Assembly (NCBI RefSeq): GCF_900095855.1
Contig: NZ_FMIY01000002.1
Span: 549,322 to 613,321 of the forward strand
Source: Megasphaera coli
GTDB lineage: Bacteria; Bacillota; Negativicutes; Veillonellales; Megasphaeraceae
Direction: 5' to 3'
Length of the DNA: 64,000 nt
A program made the translations under genes and the position numbers. Positions 7,168 to 55,576 of this stretch are shown piece by piece. The notes beneath the pieces are model-generated. The model made no database searches. It saw nothing but the letters and a program-made list of their open reading frames with translations, and was not told the origin of the DNA. Numbering within the stretch: position 1 is the stretch's first letter; each line of letters begins with the position of its first letter.

Positions 7168-7184
7168 GGAACAAATAGAATACA

Positions 7185-7274
7185 GAGAAGCTAGGGGAGC
7201 CGTTTATTCGGCTGAGAAAAGATACTTTGACCCTTTCACCTGATGTAGATAATCCTACCGTAGGGAAGCTTGAC
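7185..7274 (+). ncRNA. TPP riboswitch (THI element)
   Basis: Conserved THI-box pieces are present in order: GGGGAGCC, CGGCTGAGAA, GACCCTTTCACCTGAT, then GATAATCCTACCGTAGGGAA. The P1 helix is formed by AAGCT (7188-7192) and AGCTT (7267-7271). The RNA binds thiamine pyrophosphate and should lower expression of the downstream thiC through the terminator at 7294-7324. Confidence 0.95.
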
Positions 7275-7293
7275 CTTGTTTTGTATGAGAAAA

Positions 7294-25597: not shown

Positions 25598-26215
25598 TTA
25601 ATAGGTTCTGAAAACGCCGATGACGACACCTAAAATCCGGCAATCGCGAATAATGATAGGTTCGTAATCGTCATTTTCCGGCTGCAGGCGAATATGATCC
25701 TTTTCGCGGTAAAAGCGTTTTACCGTTGCTTCATCTTCTATGAGGGCGACGACGATTTGGCCGTTTCGCGCAATATCCTGAGGGCGCACAATAAGAAGGT
25801 CATGTTCCAGTATACCTGCGTCTTTCATACTGTCACCGCGGACGGTGAGCATAAAGCAGTCATCATCGCCGACAAATTCCGCCGCAAAGGGGAAGACATC
25901 TTCGACATATTCATCCGCCAAAATTGGGGCACCTGCGCGAACCTCGCCGATGAGGGGAAGGGGAACAAGTTTTTTTGAACGCCACGTGCCTTCGTCGAGA
26001 AGCTCGATTTTTCTGTTTTTGGCCGGGTCGCGGCGAATAAAACCGCGTTCTTCCAGATCACGCAAATACTTGTGTACCGTAGATGTCGAGCTGAGACCGA
26101 CTTCCGTACATATTTCGCGAACTGACGGCGGACAACCGCACGTGTGTATACATTCACGCAGATATTCCAATACTTGCCGTTGCCGTGTATTGAGCGTCTT
26201 TTCCGAGTTCATCAT
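25598..26215 (-). CDS. lexA: LexA repressor, SOS regulator
   Basis: A 205-residue repressor of DNA-damage genes that cleaves itself when RecA is activated. The winged-helix DNA-binding half is at 8-72 (LNTRQRQVLEYLRE, SVREICTEVGLSSTSTVHKYL). The cleavage site Ala94-Gly95 lies in VRAGAP. The catalytic pair is Ser129 (VRGDSMKDAGI) and Lys166 (EDEATVKRFY). Two ATG codons at 26215 and 26212; either is possible. It faces the LysM division inhibitor across three LexA boxes and one box overlaps its own -35, so it is autoregulated. Confidence 0.97.
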   Translation of the reverse strand: MMNSEKTLNTRQRQVLEYLRECIHTCGCPPSVREICTEVGLSSTSTVHKYLRDLEERGFIRRDPAKNRKIELLDEGTWRSKKLVPLPLIGEVRAGAPILADEYVEDVFPFAAEFVGDDDCFMLTVRGDSMKDAGILEHDLLIVRPQDIARNGQIVVALIEDEATVKRFYREKDHIRLQPENDDYEPIIIRDCRILGVVIGVFRTY

Positions 26216-26249
26216 TATTATAGTTCACTCCAAGTCTTATGATGATTTT

Positions 26250-26278
26250 ATTATAAACAATAGCCTATTAAAAAGCAA
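26250..26278 (-). promoter_or_regulatory. lexA promoter
   Basis: On the - strand TTGCTT (26273-26278), 17 bases, TATAAT (26250-26255). The -35 overlaps LexA box 1. Confidence 0.8.
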
Positions 26279-26289
26279 ACATTTGTTTC
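26276..26289. promoter_or_regulatory. LexA box 1
   Basis: CAAAC-ATTT-GTTTC fits the Firmicute LexA pattern CGAAC-N4-GTTCG as an imperfect dyad. It overlaps the lexA -35. Confidence 0.75.
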
Positions 26290-26297
26290 CTTATTCC

Positions 26298-26326
26298 TTG
26301 ACAAAACAAATGTTCGGCGATATAAT
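26298..26326 (+). promoter_or_regulatory. Consensus promoter of the yneA-like gene
   Basis: TTGACA (26298-26303), 17 bases, TATAAT (26321-26326): a perfect consensus promoter whose spacer is filled by LexA box 2, giving a strong promoter that is off unless SOS is induced. Confidence 0.92.
26303..26316. promoter_or_regulatory. LexA box 2
   Basis: AAAAC-AAAT-GTTCG, with a perfect right half-site, lies inside the promoter spacer of the divergent division-inhibitor gene. Confidence 0.78.
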
Positions 26327-26353
26327 AAAAACGTCAGGAGAACGAACGTTCGC

Positions 26354-26367
26354 GGAACATTTGTTTT
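26354..26367. promoter_or_regulatory. LexA box 3
   Basis: GGAAC-ATTT-GTTTT lies about 20 bases downstream of the predicted start of the yneA-like transcript, as an extra roadblock. A spacer-less CGAACGTTCG palindrome lies just upstream (26343-26352). Confidence 0.7.
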
Positions 26368-26392
26368 CATCGGAGCAGAGGAGTGTAGGAGA

Positions 26393-26719
26393 ATGAAAAG
26401 AAAAATTCGAAAAAAAAATCATACATACGGCACCATTCGCTTTATTTTTATGGCGGTAATACTGGTTGCGTCCTTGACGCAGCTCGGTTGGATCGGTAAT
26501 TCTCACAAAGAATATGTAACAGTTCAAGTCCGTCAGGGTGACACGCTTTGGCAAATCGCCTCCGAGGCGACTGCCGACGGCGACGACGTACGTAATACGG
26601 TCGTCGATATAGTGAACGCCAACAATCTGGGCCATAACGAAGATATTTATCCCGGCCAAATATTGAATGTGCCCGTCTCGGAAAGTACTGCAGCACACAT
26701 GCATATCAGCAACTCCTAA
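26393..26719 (+). CDS. LysM-domain SOS cell-division inhibitor (YneA-like)
   Basis: A 108-residue protein with a basic N-terminus (KRKIRKKNHTYG), one membrane helix (about 17-33) and an extracytoplasmic LysM domain (VTVQVRQGDTLWQIA to YPGQILNVPV, about 43-96). B. subtilis YneA has the same layout and lies divergent from lexA, delaying division during the SOS response. Three LexA boxes surround the perfect promoter here. AGAGGAG lies nine bases before the ATG. Its 3' end overlaps the convergent recombinase gene by four bases. YneA identity rests on layout and context, not on sequence comparison. Confidence 0.85.
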   Translation: MKRKIRKKNHTYGTIRFIFMAVILVASLTQLGWIGNSHKEYVTVQVRQGDTLWQIASEATADGDDVRNTVVDIVNANNLGHNEDIYPGQILNVPVSESTAAHMHISNS

Positions 26720-27711
26720 TGAGATTTATCTCCGGTAATCTTAAAAATCGGATTATCAATGAGCCTGTCCGCTTCGTCAATATAACGGCGCACGATAGAC
26801 TGGGATTTATGCCGCGTTTGACGCATAATTTGTCGTTCTTCCACGTGATGCTGCGCGGCCGATGTGGCAAAGCCGTGACGCAGACTGTGGGCGCCGTATT
26901 CCTTCGGGTCCATGCCGACGGCACTGACGTATTTCTTTACGATTAAGGCAATGGATTTATCCGATATATGTGTTTTGCGGAGAGTCCGATTTTTCGTAAA
27001 ACCGCGAAATACGGGACCGGTCGTGATCTGAGCCGACTTCAGCCATTCCTTTAAGGCATGCACGGCACAAACTGATTTATCTTCTACTGCGGGAATGGCA
27101 ATCATCTGGCCTTGGCCGACCTTATCGGTCTTCGTATTTCTCAGCGTAATGAGAAGACCTAAGCGGGAAAAACGCAAATCCTCCACATCGAGGCCCGCAA
27201 TTTCGGAGCGCCTCATGGCACCGTAAAAACCGATTAACAAAATCGCCTTATCACGTGCCTGTTCAAGCTCATGACCATCCAAATGAAGGAGCATCTCCTT
27301 CAGATCATCAAAGAGAATCGGCATTTTTCCCTGTTGAAACGTACCTTTCATGCGTTTTATACCGCGCAGGGCATTTTTGACAAGTGGCATGCGGCACGGG
27401 TTATCGGCAAGGCCGGCCGCATCGAAATTTTCCGTAAGCGCGCTGATTCGCCGGGCTACCGTATTGGCCTTGGCGTTGTCGGCCAAGTCGTTTATGTAAT
27501 TGACGATTGTCTCCGGCGCGGCAGGGAAATATGATACCTCGTGCTGCGTACACCAGTCACAAAAATCCTTCCAATCCGACGCATAGGCGGCGACCGTATT
27601 ATCCGCATGAGCCACATAAATACTTTGGCGCGCCTTGTCCGTAAGGTTCTTGTTGTTTTCGACGGCCGCCGTTCGGCCGATATAAAAATCCTTTAAACTA
27701 TCGTAATTCAT
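26716..27711 (-). CDS. Tyrosine recombinase (Xer/integrase family), intact
   Basis: A 331-residue site-specific recombinase. An N-terminal SAM-like core-binding domain (about 30-115) is followed by the catalytic domain with the complete set R167 (GAMRRSEIAGL), K194 (RNTKTDK), H275 and R278 (HSLRHGFAT), H301 (TRHKS) and the nucleophile Y310 (RRYID). Length is between XerC/D (about 300) and XerS (about 356). AGGAG precedes the ATG with a 6-base gap. A possible extended -10 (TGA-TAAAAT, about 27758-27766) serves it. No phage or conjugation genes adjoin, but a 13+7+13 palindrome lies 330 bases upstream. It could be a chromosome-dimer resolvase or an orphan integrase. Confidence 0.9.
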   Translation of the reverse strand: MNYDSLKDFYIGRTAAVENNKNLTDKARQSIYVAHADNTVAAYASDWKDFCDWCTQHEVSYFPAAPETIVNYINDLADNAKANTVARRISALTENFDAAGLADNPCRMPLVKNALRGIKRMKGTFQQGKMPILFDDLKEMLLHLDGHELEQARDKAILLIGFYGAMRRSEIAGLDVEDLRFSRLGLLITLRNTKTDKVGQGQMIAIPAVEDKSVCAVHALKEWLKSAQITTGPVFRGFTKNRTLRKTHISDKSIALIVKKYVSAVGMDPKEYGAHSLRHGFATSAAQHHVEERQIMRQTRHKSQSIVRRYIDEADRLIDNPIFKITGDKSH

Positions 27712-27768
27712 AGAAAACTCCTATATAGCAAGCAACTGTAACATTCTAAAAACACGGATTTTATCACA

Positions 27769-27797
27769 TTGACCGGTCTCTCGCCGTATATTAAAGT
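27769..27797 (+). promoter_or_regulatory. Candidate promoter of the 49-residue ORF
   Basis: TTGACC (27769-27774), 17 bases, TAAAGT (27792-27797), about 28 bases before AGGAGG. The -10 is weak. Confidence 0.4.
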
Positions 27798-27842
27798 AGA
27801 TTTAAGAAATAAAAAAGTGTCTCTAGGAGGTATTATGAAGTC

Positions 27843-27992
27843 ATGAATATTCGAAAAATTACGAACGGCTTGCGCATAATTAACCTGATCCTCAGTGTGG
27901 TTGCATTATTCGTGACGGTCAAAGCACTGAAAGAAACCAAGTACGATTACGATGATGAGTATGAAGAAGATGAAGAGAATGAAGCATCGTAA
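27843..27992 (+). CDS. Small single-pass membrane protein with acidic tail
   Basis: A 49-residue ORF. A basic start (MNIRKITNGLR) is followed by one hydrophobic helix (about 12-26) and a strongly acidic tail with alternating Tyr/Asp/Glu. AGGAGG (27825-27830) lies 12 bases before this ATG and 4 bases before another ATG (27835) that opens a three-codon ORF, Met-Lys-Ser-stop, whose TGA overlaps this start codon, so translation may be coupled by termination-reinitiation. The orientation is opposite to the recombinase and the two share an upstream gap. No homologue is known to me. Too short to be sure it is expressed. Confidence 0.5.
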   Translation: MNIRKITNGLRIINLILSVVALFVTVKALKETKYDYDDEYEEDEENEAS

Positions 27993-27996
27993 TTCG

Positions 27997-28021
27997 GCTT
28001 GGAATCGAGCCAAGGATTTTT
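27997..28021 (+). terminator. Weak terminator after the 49-residue ORF
   Basis: CTTGG and CCAAG form a short stem followed by GATTTTT. Only five base pairs. Confidence 0.35.
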
Positions 28022-28037
28022 CCTAAACTTTCATCAT

Positions 28038-28070
28038 TAACTTCCGATAACGTTAAATTATCGGAAGTTA
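28038..28070. repeat. Perfect 13-bp inverted repeat with 7-base centre; candidate recombinase site
   Basis: TAACTTCCGATAA (28038-28050) and TTATCGGAAGTTA (28058-28070) flank CGTTAAA. There is no T-run on either side, so it is not an intrinsic terminator. Arm length, central spacer and the ACTTCC-ATAA bases recall dif/lox-type sites of tyrosine recombinases, and such an enzyme is encoded next to it. An operator is the main alternative, since a - strand promoter lies just beside it. Confidence 0.5.
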
Positions 28071-28851: not shown

Positions 28852-29061
28852 TTATTTTGACTTCGGGCCGAATACACGATCCATCCCTGCGGCAGTTACC
28901 AGCCAGATCCGCCCTGCTCGCCGCGCCTCATCAGCCGTAAACCGCGGCGCGAAATTTTTACCGCCCGTACAAGCACGCTGCACATTGCGCGGTAACGTGT
29001 CCCAGATGACCGCCGCTTCGGCAGCGGTCATGACCTCATGTAATGCGTTGTTGTGTACCAC
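28852..29061 (-). CDS. Small helix-turn-helix protein (excisionase-like)
   Basis: A 69-residue protein from GTG 29061, supported by AAAGGAGC eight bases upstream. The core reads VMTAAEAAVIWDTLPRNVQRA, then FTADEARRAGRIWLVTAAGMDRVFG: the 'AAE-W-...-R-W-LVT-A-M-R-YG' layout of small helix-turn-helix proteins found in Firmicute phage-like and plasmid regions, in which a helix-turn-helix reads DNA and a C-terminal wing follows. Next to a tyrosine recombinase and an IS remnant it may be a recombination directionality factor or a relic regulator. The family assignment is from pattern memory. Confidence 0.55.
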   Translation of the reverse strand: MVHNNALHEVMTAAEAAVIWDTLPRNVQRACTGGKNFAPRFTADEARRAGRIWLVTAAGMDRVFGPKSK

Positions 29062-29305
29062 GTCTACAGCTCCTTTACATAAATCCGATCTCTTGCAGAG
29101 TTCTCCCTGATCGAAAAACTTTTTCAAGAGAGTACAGTCCCATTTTTCTTTTAAAAGTTGCGTCCTGAAACAAATGTATTCCCCGCCGGGCAGTAATCTA
29201 TTTGCGGTCTGAATTTTCCTTCAATCAATGCCGATACGTCAACGACATACCCGTATTGCCGGCGGTAAGGCAAATATCGAATATTTAAACTCTTGTAACT
29301 CCGAA
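29062..29305. other. Non-coding gap
   Basis: No ORF with a ribosome binding site, terminator hairpin or promoter pair was seen between the small HTH gene and mtaD. It presumably carries the promoter of the HTH gene. Confidence 0.4.
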
Positions 29306-38147: not shown

Positions 38148-38170
38148 CATATGAGCATAACAAATAAACT

Positions 38171-38292
38171 GTCTTTTTCATCCAGACTGTCACTGTCGGT
38201 ACCGGAATCGCACCGGTTCTGCCGTAAAGCTCGCGGACTGTCACCGCCGGTCAGGAGTTGAAAGCCGTGCTTTCTCACCTTGCCTCAAAGAC
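38171..38292 (-). ncRNA. FMN riboswitch (RFN element)
   Basis: On the - strand the order AAGGTGAGAAAGCACGG, CTGACCGGCGGTGACAGTCC, GCGAGC, ACCGGTGCGATTCCGGTACC, GACAGTGACAGTCTGGATG matches the RFN consensus. P1 is formed by GTCTTT and AAAGAC (38287-38292 and 38171-38176). FMN should favour the downstream terminator and shut off ribD onward. Confidence 0.96.
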
Positions 38293-38321
38293 TATGGACA
38301 GTATGCATTTTTCTATTGCAA

Positions 38322-50132: not shown

Positions 50133-50140
50133 AAAATTAC

Positions 50141-50237
50141 CCATCTTCCAGTCATTCCGACTGTTGGACTTAGCACCTTTACTGTGAGCAGGTTGCTGCG
50201 GCGTCATCGGGCCAATCCCTCTGCCGACTCTTGATGG
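50141..50237 (-). ncRNA. SAM-I riboswitch (S-box)
   Basis: On the - strand the S-box order is clear: ATCAAGAG, GAGGGATTGGCCCGATGA, GCCGCAGCAACC, GGTGCTAAGTCC and GGAAGATGG. P1 is CCATC/GATGG (50233-50237 with 50141-50145). SAM binding should favour the terminator and repress metK. Confidence 0.96.
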
Positions 50238-50264
50238 AACGGTATGTTGTTTTGACTGATACTT

Positions 50265-53854: not shown

Positions 53855-55576
53855 ATGAATCTTGACGGCATTACACTACACGTCCTGACGGCGGAACTGG
53901 CCGATTCTTTACGGGGCGGCCAAATATCCAAAATTTATCAGCTTCACGACAGAGGCCTGTATTTCCGGATCTTCAACGAAGAGGGGCCGTGCCACCTTAT
54001 CATCACCTTGGACGGCTCGCCGCGCCTCTATTTGGCGGACAATCAGCCTGCCACACCGAACGTGCCGACAGCTTTGGCTATGTTCCTGCGCAAATATTAT
54101 GAAAACGGACGCATTGCCTCCGTTTCACAACTCCATTTGGATCGTATCGTCGAAATCGGCGTAGACATCCTCGATATATCGGGAAAATTGGCAACCCGTA
54201 AGATACACGTCGAACTCATGGGCAAATACAGCAATGTCATCTTTACGGAGCATAACGTCATTTTGGAGGCCCTTATCAAAACGGGCAAGGGAAAGACCGC
54301 GCTGCGTACAATTGCGCCGAAGGAACCTTATGAATTTCCGCCGAACTTCATGCGCATGGATCCCTTCGACTTCTCCGTCCGAGAGCTTCTCGCCATGACG
54401 GCGAACGACACGGATGAAGAATTGGGCAAGTGGATGCTGCAGTACTTCAACGGTATGAGTACGCTCGTATTAAATGAGCTTGCCCTGCGGACGGGAACCG
54501 ATCTGCACGCGCGCCTTGATGCGCTCACGGCGAAAGAAAAGGAAAACTGGTTTCATGCCGTCGTCACCTTGGGCAAGAAGCTGCAGCATGTTCGCGGGGC
54601 TTACGTCTATAGAAAAGACAATAAAGAAAGCATTTTTCCTCTCAAGCTTACAAGCCTCGCCGCCGGCCACACCGTCCGGTATTACAGCCGCATCCGGGAC
54701 TATTTGAAAGAATTTCAGGATAATCAGGGCAGCTTGAACGGTGAGCAGGAAGCCCTGAGACGCAAGATCTCGAAGCTGACGGAACGGCAAGTCCGTAAAA
54801 TGAAACGCATAAACGGCGAGCTTAAAGAAACGGACAAGATGGACACGTATAAGCTATACGGCGATTTGCTCATGATTCACGCCTATAAACAGGCGAATCA
54901 CCAAAAATCCGTTACGGTGACCAACCTCCTCTCGGAAGCACAGGAAGATATAAAAATCACCTTGGATCCGGCTTTGTCCATTACGGATAACGCCAACAAG
55001 TACTACAAAAAATACACAAAACTGCGCAACAGAAAGCAAAAGTCCGCCGAACTGCAGGAAGAAAATCAAAAAGAGCTGGACTATCTCGAATCACTCGAAT
55101 ATGCCCTGCAAACATCGGTCACCAAGGACGAGCTCGCCGATATTAAGGCGGAAATGCACGCGATGGGCCTTTTGCAGCTAAGCGGCAAAGAAAAGTTGAA
55201 AAAAGAATCTGCCCAACAGATTCTGACCCTTCACGCAGACGGCATGGATATATGGATCGGCCGCAATAACAGGCAAAACGACTTTCTTACCTTAAAAAAG
55301 GCCCATCCTTACGATCTGTGGTTTCATGCAAAAAATCAGCCCGGCTCCCATGTCATCCTGGTCTGCCATAACGGCACGCCGACGGACGAGCAAATCGCGG
55401 CGGCGGCCGAATCGGCGGCCTACTTCAGCAGGAGCCGCCACAGTTCCAAGGTGGAAGTTGACTGTACGCTCGTACGAAATGTAAAAAAACCGGCCCGCGC
55501 CGTACCGGGGTATGTCATCTTTGATAATCAGACAACCTATATAGTAGAACCGAAAGACCGTCGACAGGACACATAA
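53855..55576 (+). CDS. rqcH: RqcH / NFACT ribosome quality-control factor
   Basis: A 573-residue NEMF/Tae2 homologue that adds C-terminal alanine tails to peptides stuck on split 50S subunits; older annotations call it fibronectin-binding protein. NFACT-N domain (about 1-210, starting MNLDGITLHVLTAEL), a long coiled coil (about 290-430 with many Lys/Glu), and the NFACT-R domain (about 450-560) with IGRNNRQNDFLTLKKAHPYDLWFHAKNQPGSH as broken motifs. AAAGGAG precedes the ATG. The only large + strand gene right of 27 kb, divergent from yicC. Confidence 0.95.
   Translation: MNLDGITLHVLTAELADSLRGGQISKIYQLHDRGLYFRIFNEEGPCHLIITLDGSPRLYLADNQPATPNVPTALAMFLRKYYENGRIASVSQLHLDRIVEIGVDILDISGKLATRKIHVELMGKYSNVIFTEHNVILEALIKTGKGKTALRTIAPKEPYEFPPNFMRMDPFDFSVRELLAMTANDTDEELGKWMLQYFNGMSTLVLNELALRTGTDLHARLDALTAKEKENWFHAVVTLGKKLQHVRGAYVYRKDNKESIFPLKLTSLAAGHTVRYYSRIRDYLKEFQDNQGSLNGEQEALRRKISKLTERQVRKMKRINGELKETDKMDTYKLYGDLLMIHAYKQANHQKSVTVTNLLSEAQEDIKITLDPALSITDNANKYYKKYTKLRNRKQKSAELQEENQKELDYLESLEYALQTSVTKDELADIKAEMHAMGLLQLSGKEKLKKESAQQILTLHADGMDIWIGRNNRQNDFLTLKKAHPYDLWFHAKNQPGSHVILVCHNGTPTDEQIAAAAESAAYFSRSRHSSKVEVDCTLVRNVKKPARAVPGYVIFDNQTTYIVEPKDRRQDT

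Follow-up and report, generated by a model that had tools for sequence, protein, structure and literature searches.

We describe a tyrosine recombinase gene and a nearby 33-bp palindrome in a 64,000-nucleotide stretch of the Megasphaera coli genome (contig NZ_FMIY01000002.1; hereafter the window). As judged from sequence comparisons, the two very probably constitute a chromosome dimer resolution system, in which a captured single-recombinase module of plasmid or transposon type would have replaced XerCD/dif. The window had been predicted from its letters alone to carry a single-recombinase Xer/dif-like module. A single-recombinase terminus system is indeed what the analysis supports, but the Xer label has to be abandoned: the enzyme reaches about 60 bits against the NCBIfam Xer models, whose cut-offs for XerC, XerD, XerA and XerS lie at 220 to 335, and it is nearest to enzymes of the Cre, plasmid and TnpS type.

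The putative recombination site

The dif-like site is a perfect 13+7+13 palindrome (28038..28070) made of a left arm, TAACTTCCGATAA (28038..28050, forward strand), an asymmetric 7-bp spacer, CGTTAAA (28051..28057, forward strand), which would set the orientation of the site, and a right arm, TTATCGGAAGTTA (28058..28070, reverse strand), which is the reverse complement of the left arm with 100% complementarity. It begins 326 bp upstream of the recombinase start codon, in keeping with the distance of about 330 bases first given. The bases right after it are TAGGCCG, and the missing T-run rules out a terminator, in line with the lack of terminator features noted at first. Apart from the site, the window holds a single perfect 13-bp inverted repeat with a spacer of 3-12 bases; about 0.01 such repeats would be expected by chance (an estimate, 64000 x 10 spacers x 4^-13). 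This other repeat, at 55574, has A/T-run flanks and resembles a terminator. At up to 3 mismatches the palindrome occurs once in the 1.71-Mb genome (G000; two contigs, 89.9% complete), and a reversed control pattern does not occur.

In other genera, gene-adjacent sites retain GATAA-N7-TTATC and have their outer bases altered on both sides; the inner GATAA of the left arm is the invariant core of the alignment. The outer arms read AGGTTCC in Dialister, AACTAGT in Sporomusa and TAGTAAC in one Veillonellaceae genome, and others were also seen. In the 22 distinct sites aligned, the spacer is always 7 bp long; mirrored positions are complementary in 98.8% of cases versus 83.4% after shuffling, with 29 double changes versus 6.7, a paired percentage that is biased toward this result by the selection of rows as palindromes and in which related rows are counted repeatedly. 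Spacers are constant inside lineages (CGTTAAA, CGATATA, CATTAAA, CTATAAA). The simplest reading of this symmetric co-variation is that one enzyme would bind both half-sites, and it agrees with the earlier argument that fully symmetric arms fit a single recombinase.

With a fixed arm pattern, the site was found in 45 of 60 genomes of the order Veillonellales, as a single copy in each except G052, which has three; a control pattern gave 0. The prediction of one copy per chromosome was thus largely borne out. Sites whose outer arms differed escaped the fixed pattern and were recovered with the GATAA-N7-TTATC core and matching arms. In a further test the core was fixed first and the terminus regions (260-400 kb) of further genomes were then scanned. 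Exactly one such palindrome was present per region in G000, G035, G018, G133 and G005, including TAGTTCCGATAA CGTTAAA TTATCGGAACTA at the terminus of G005, where the fixed pattern had found none, and TACTTCCGATAA TTTATAC TTATCGGAAGTA in G133, a member of the Selenomonadaceae. The same terminus search found no core with matching arms in G195 and G187, two Selenomonadaceae that do not carry the recombinase.

Position at the replication terminus

The cumulative guanine-cytosine (GC) skew of G000 reaches its maximum 3.8 kb from the site; over the surrounding 400 kb the skew is about +0.08 on the left side and -0.07 on the right side. The site lies 778 kb from dnaA on a 1.61-Mb contig, that is 0.48 of the contig, and in other near-complete Veillonellales the site or gene is 0.42-0.50 of the chromosome away from dnaA. 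The distance from site to skew switch is 142 bp in Veillonella parvula SKV38 (G035), 2.2 kb in G018, 3.9 kb in G133 and 21 kb in G005, in agreement with the location at the switch that had been anticipated. The arrangement by which dif-type dimer resolution is recognised, one site that faces the origin and sits at the skew switch, was therefore found.

The companion expectation, that the site always accompanies the recombinase gene, did not hold: the two are 85-106 kb apart in some Megasphaera and 167 kb apart in G133, whose site nevertheless sits at the skew switch. A canonical dif (asymmetric, 11+6+11) was not found at up to 5 mismatches in the terminus regions of G000, G133 and G018, and in the terminus region of G035 the same search gave a single palindrome, with 5 mismatches and 87 kb away from the switch.

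The recombinase and its relatives

The recombinase gene (26716..27711, reverse strand) encodes a protein of 331 amino acids with Pfam domains PF00589 (Phage_integrase, 67.6 bits) and PF02899. The nearest named relative, at 82%, is Anaeroglobus geminatus. The intact catalytic set already noted in the sequence is conserved, R167, K194, H275, R278, H301 and Y310 being invariant across 49 homologues. Stops in frame in some matches (G049, G070) are only apparent and look like alignments overrunning the natural stop, since intact open reading frames were recovered at the corresponding loci.

Among Xer models, the protein scores 61.7 and 63.5 bits against the XerC and XerD equivalogs (cut-offs 335 and 330) and 56.4 bits against XerS (cut-off 267). 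A profile of the 49 relatives searched against the PDB matched Cre best (6e-17, residues 36-316), followed by XerD (3e-12), XerA and XerH, the last weakly (7e-5). An AlphaFold2 model (predicted local distance difference test 85, predicted template modelling score 0.61) gave Cre as the best Foldseek match (E 6e-13, template modelling score about 0.63), and VIA-align Z values were 23.5 for Cre, 19.0 for XerH, 18.7 for XerA and 13.3 for XerD. By these profile and fold predictions, the recombinase is not a Xer protein and is closest to Cre.

In a phylogenetic tree whose root is not secure, the 41 enzymes from Negativicutes form one clade (support 99/97, 98% of bootstraps) that follows taxonomy, and Xer and Cre fall outside it on long branches (5.6 for P1 Cre). 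The closest relatives found beyond the Negativicutes are plasmid enzymes, from Alicyclobacillus (45% identity) and Paenibacillus polymyxa (42%). Plasmid relatives with 36-45% identity bear a like site, which lies 30-110 bp upstream of the gene in those of Niallia, Alicyclobacillus dauci, Protochlamydia and Rhizobium tropici. A protein from a Shewanella plasmid with Tn3-family transposases, named TnpS-like here on the basis of gene context, is 34% identical over 297 amino acids (9e-42), and the intergenic region of its gene contains a CGATAA-N6-TTATCG palindrome. The Shewanella plasmid also has a palindrome with a CGATAA...TTATCG core near its Cre-like gene; we take this palindrome to be SloxP and the plasmid record to be the source of SCre/SloxP. 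The SCre/SloxP pair, from a Shewanella plasmid, has been characterised by experiment (PMC4957104). Matches in the phage collection searched were weak (23-31% identity), and a phage origin of the enzyme was rejected. Because the plasmid lineages are widely spread, transfer would have run from plasmid to chromosome.

Distribution and loss of Xer proteins in the Negativicutes

The recombinase is present in one copy in 57 of the 60 Veillonellales genomes, and XerD reaches its equivalog cut-off in 0 of the 60. Neither the XerC nor the XerD cut-off is reached anywhere in G000, as had been foreseen; its only other tyrosine recombinase, at C1:98193 amid mobile-element genes, is an integrative-element integrase. 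The FtsK gamma domain was found in G000 and in 19 of 21 other genomes. In a class-wide sample of 300 Negativicutes genomes, XerD exceeds its cut-off in 119, and 130 contain the recombinase (E <= 1e-40). Two single-contig genomes of the class (G111, G128) gave no detectable XerD, recombinase or FtsK gamma domain.

Several observations weigh against the dimer resolution interpretation. XerD and the recombinase occur together in 25 of the 300 genomes, every one outside the Veillonellales, and coexistence with one or two Xer proteins means that the enzyme was not necessarily the only resolver at the outset. Both the recombinase and XerD are missing from many Selenomonadaceae, so that the system is not universal. 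One Veillonellales genome (G055; 99% complete, 80 contigs) is devoid of both gene and site, possibly through an assembly gap, otherwise through real loss. Twelve other, gene-bearing genomes gave no site with the fixed pattern; of these, G005 and G018 were resolved by looser searches, and in G022 a candidate site lies upstream of the gene. Finally, the recombinase gene often adjoins lexA, which makes a connection with the SOS response, or some other role, possible.

Seventeen of the 25 genomes with XerD and the recombinase show just one Xer gene, and eight of these 17, checked with the XerC model, revealed no second gene at Xer-like scores; in a genome of Sporomusa (G180), XerC and XerD both occur alongside the recombinase. 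The class thus displays XerC and XerD, both with the recombinase, a single Xer with the recombinase, and the recombinase alone, graded states that may represent an order in time. A likely course is that a plasmid- or transposon-type module was acquired at the terminus and coexisted with XerCD, after which one Xer protein was lost and then both. For much of the class, it is probable that XerCD/dif was replaced stepwise by a Cre/TnpS-like recombinase and a lox-like site with intermediates still visible, perhaps with a second, different replacement within the Selenomonadaceae.

Selenomonadaceae that have neither XerD nor the Cre-like enzyme share another tyrosine recombinase, of about 340 amino acids (G187:C1:1905544; L171, L172, L174). 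In G187 the skew switch lies 2.9 kb from a perfect palindrome of another sequence, ACTATCCATAA-TTACCA-TTATGGATAGT. This recombinase and palindrome might form a third, separate single-recombinase system.

Mobile elements at the site and alternative interpretations

The site appears to be used by mobile elements. A Veillonella prophage contig (L072, 1-1100) has the host site at its start and an integrase gene next to it, and is 100% identical over 87 bp to a V. tobetsuensis sequence (L096). Two related phage contigs (L004 6132; L005 5208) have an intact site directly upstream of a small-terminase-like gene, and in Dialister succinatiphilus half a site and the spacer remain beside the gene. Integrative elements of other bacteria exploit dif in a comparable way.

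Other loci with signs of site use by prophages or elements are L145 near 2900, L043 2707 and L047 304. A filamentous-phage-like contig with a Zot-like gene (L067 2776-3966, L069), located by a gyrA-like gene, encodes a 32% identical recombinase with a ACTTCCGATAA-N7-TTATCGGAAGT site immediately upstream. The Selenomonas ruminantium plasmid pSRC5 (L077 1687-1717) has a degenerate site with one intact half-site, between a parA-adjacent gene and a helix-turn-helix gene, which might let the plasmid borrow the host enzyme.

Prophages located at the site, together with relatives on plasmids and in a transposon, could also be expected of a mobile-element relic, either an integrated plasmid or the attachment system of a phage, which became fixed at the terminus with no role in dimer resolution. 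Such a relic is very unlikely, given the single copy per genome, vertical inheritance across the order and beyond, arms conserved by co-variation, a site that stays at the skew switch though unlinked from the gene, and the lack of XerD throughout the order.

Still less likely is an ordinary Xer/dif system in a divergent lineage, with the enzyme as a fast-evolving orthologue of XerD or XerC. The normal size of this tyrosine recombinase, its dif-like terminus site and a weak similarity of about 60 bits to XerD, XerC and XerA would suit such an origin, but the enzyme coexists with a true XerD in 25 genomes, all 41 sequences stand apart from Xer and group with plasmid enzymes, profile and fold are nearest to Cre, and it is plasmid relatives at 36-45% identity that bear a like site. 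A divergent Xer was rejected on the grounds of coexistence, tree and profile. The least likely explanation of all, that a dimeric transcription factor uses the palindrome as its operator and controls, for instance, the recombinase gene, draws on the position of the palindrome 30-150 bp upstream of that gene in several genera, but the palindrome keeps its terminus location even with 85-167 kb between it and the gene, its asymmetric spacer is constant within lineages, and prophages integrate at it.

Comparison with known systems and proposed mechanism

The proposed dimer resolution system resembles XerS/difSL, XerH/difH and the XerL system of Legionellales in having one tyrosine recombinase and one palindromic terminus site, often gene-adjacent, and in those systems too mobile elements exploit the site (PMC5357621, PMC2731167, PMC9765430). 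It differs from XerS/difSL, whose site has an 11-bp centre, by its 7-bp centre and fully symmetric arms as well as by falling below the XerS cut-off, and probably also from XerH, to which the profile likeness is distant. A single enzyme, a symmetric site and the best profile and fold match ally it with Cre/loxP of phage P1 and with SCre/SloxP. The enzyme is about 23% identical to Cre and equally so to the Cre-like protein of the Shewanella plasmid, loxP is 13+8+13 instead of 13+7+13, and Cre/loxP serves a phage-plasmid instead of a chromosome terminus.

TnpS homology and a palindrome of similar core recall the Tn4651-type Tn3-family transposons, whose TnpS+TnpT resolvases work at an intergenic inverted repeat separating the two genes (PMC7157771). 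Unlike TnpS+TnpT/rst, the window system is chromosomal, vertically inherited and has one inverted repeat at its site; neither a TnpT helper gene nor a second inverted-repeat pair was seen beside the window gene, whose neighbours are lexA, a LysM gene and an open reading frame of 49 amino acids. With XerCD/dif it shares a lone terminus site, the FtsK gamma domain and the proposed role, and it departs from XerCD/dif by its single enzyme, symmetric arms, 7-bp instead of 6-bp centre and the absence of XerC and XerD.

We infer binding, strand exchange, FtsK dependence and dimer resolution itself as follows. Recombination between sister chromosomes would give a circular dimer in which the 33-bp site is present twice. 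Each site would be occupied by two recombinase monomers on two identical half-sites (the outer six bases plus the core GATAA), and a tetramer would pair both copies. Tyr310 would cut where the 7-bp spacer meets the arms, and a two-step exchange via a Holliday junction would release two monomers, with the asymmetric spacer fixing the direction of exchange. Four monomers on two sites and a two-step exchange through a Holliday junction are established for this recombinase family. The terminus position would let the FtsK pump bring both copies together at the septum. By analogy, FtsK is expected to act by gathering the sites and not by touching the enzyme, because Cre-loxP, which can stand in for XerCD-dif at the terminus of E. 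coli, then requires FtsK guided by FtsK-orienting polar sequences (KOPS) (PMC2680272; PMC2731167).

Carnoy and Roten discussed this laboratory replacement of dif by Cre/loxP and reported no evidence of loxP/Cre-like systems in Xer-deficient proteobacteria (PMC2731167). In the open-access papers searched we found nothing on dif, Xer or dimer resolution in Veillonella, Megasphaera or Negativicutes, nor on Cre-like chromosome dimer resolvers.

Genomic neighbourhood

The lexA gene (25598..26215, reverse strand) is a conserved neighbour that adjoins the recombinase gene in most Veillonellales loci and also in those of Anaerospora and Pelosinus. Between them lies another conserved neighbour, a gene for a LysM-domain protein (26393..26719, forward strand; PF01476), divergent from lexA and convergent with the recombinase gene, which we assume to be YneA/SosA-like. 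LexA-box-like repeats lie between lexA and the divergent LysM gene (window 25598-26719), and P1 cre is likewise preceded by an annotated LexA site. A tie between dimer resolution and the SOS response is possible.

A small HTH_59 gene near the site (28852-29127), with similarity to an excisionase family (PHROG 2655), is possibly the remnant of an integrated element. The window also contains riboswitches for thiamine pyrophosphate (7183-7283), flavin mononucleotide (38167-38296) and S-adenosylmethionine (50138-50240).

Implications

Chromosome dimer resolution is usually treated as a conserved function of Xer proteins. The Negativicutes offer a natural candidate counterpart, complete with intermediates, of the laboratory substitution of Cre-loxP for dif in E. 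coli. How an essential-like recombination system is swapped can thereby be tested directly, as can the question of whether a non-Xer enzyme needs FtsK or is activated by it. For these common bacteria of the gut and mouth, the module would also serve to mark the terminus, provide a site of prophage attachment and add a new family of lox-type recombinases.
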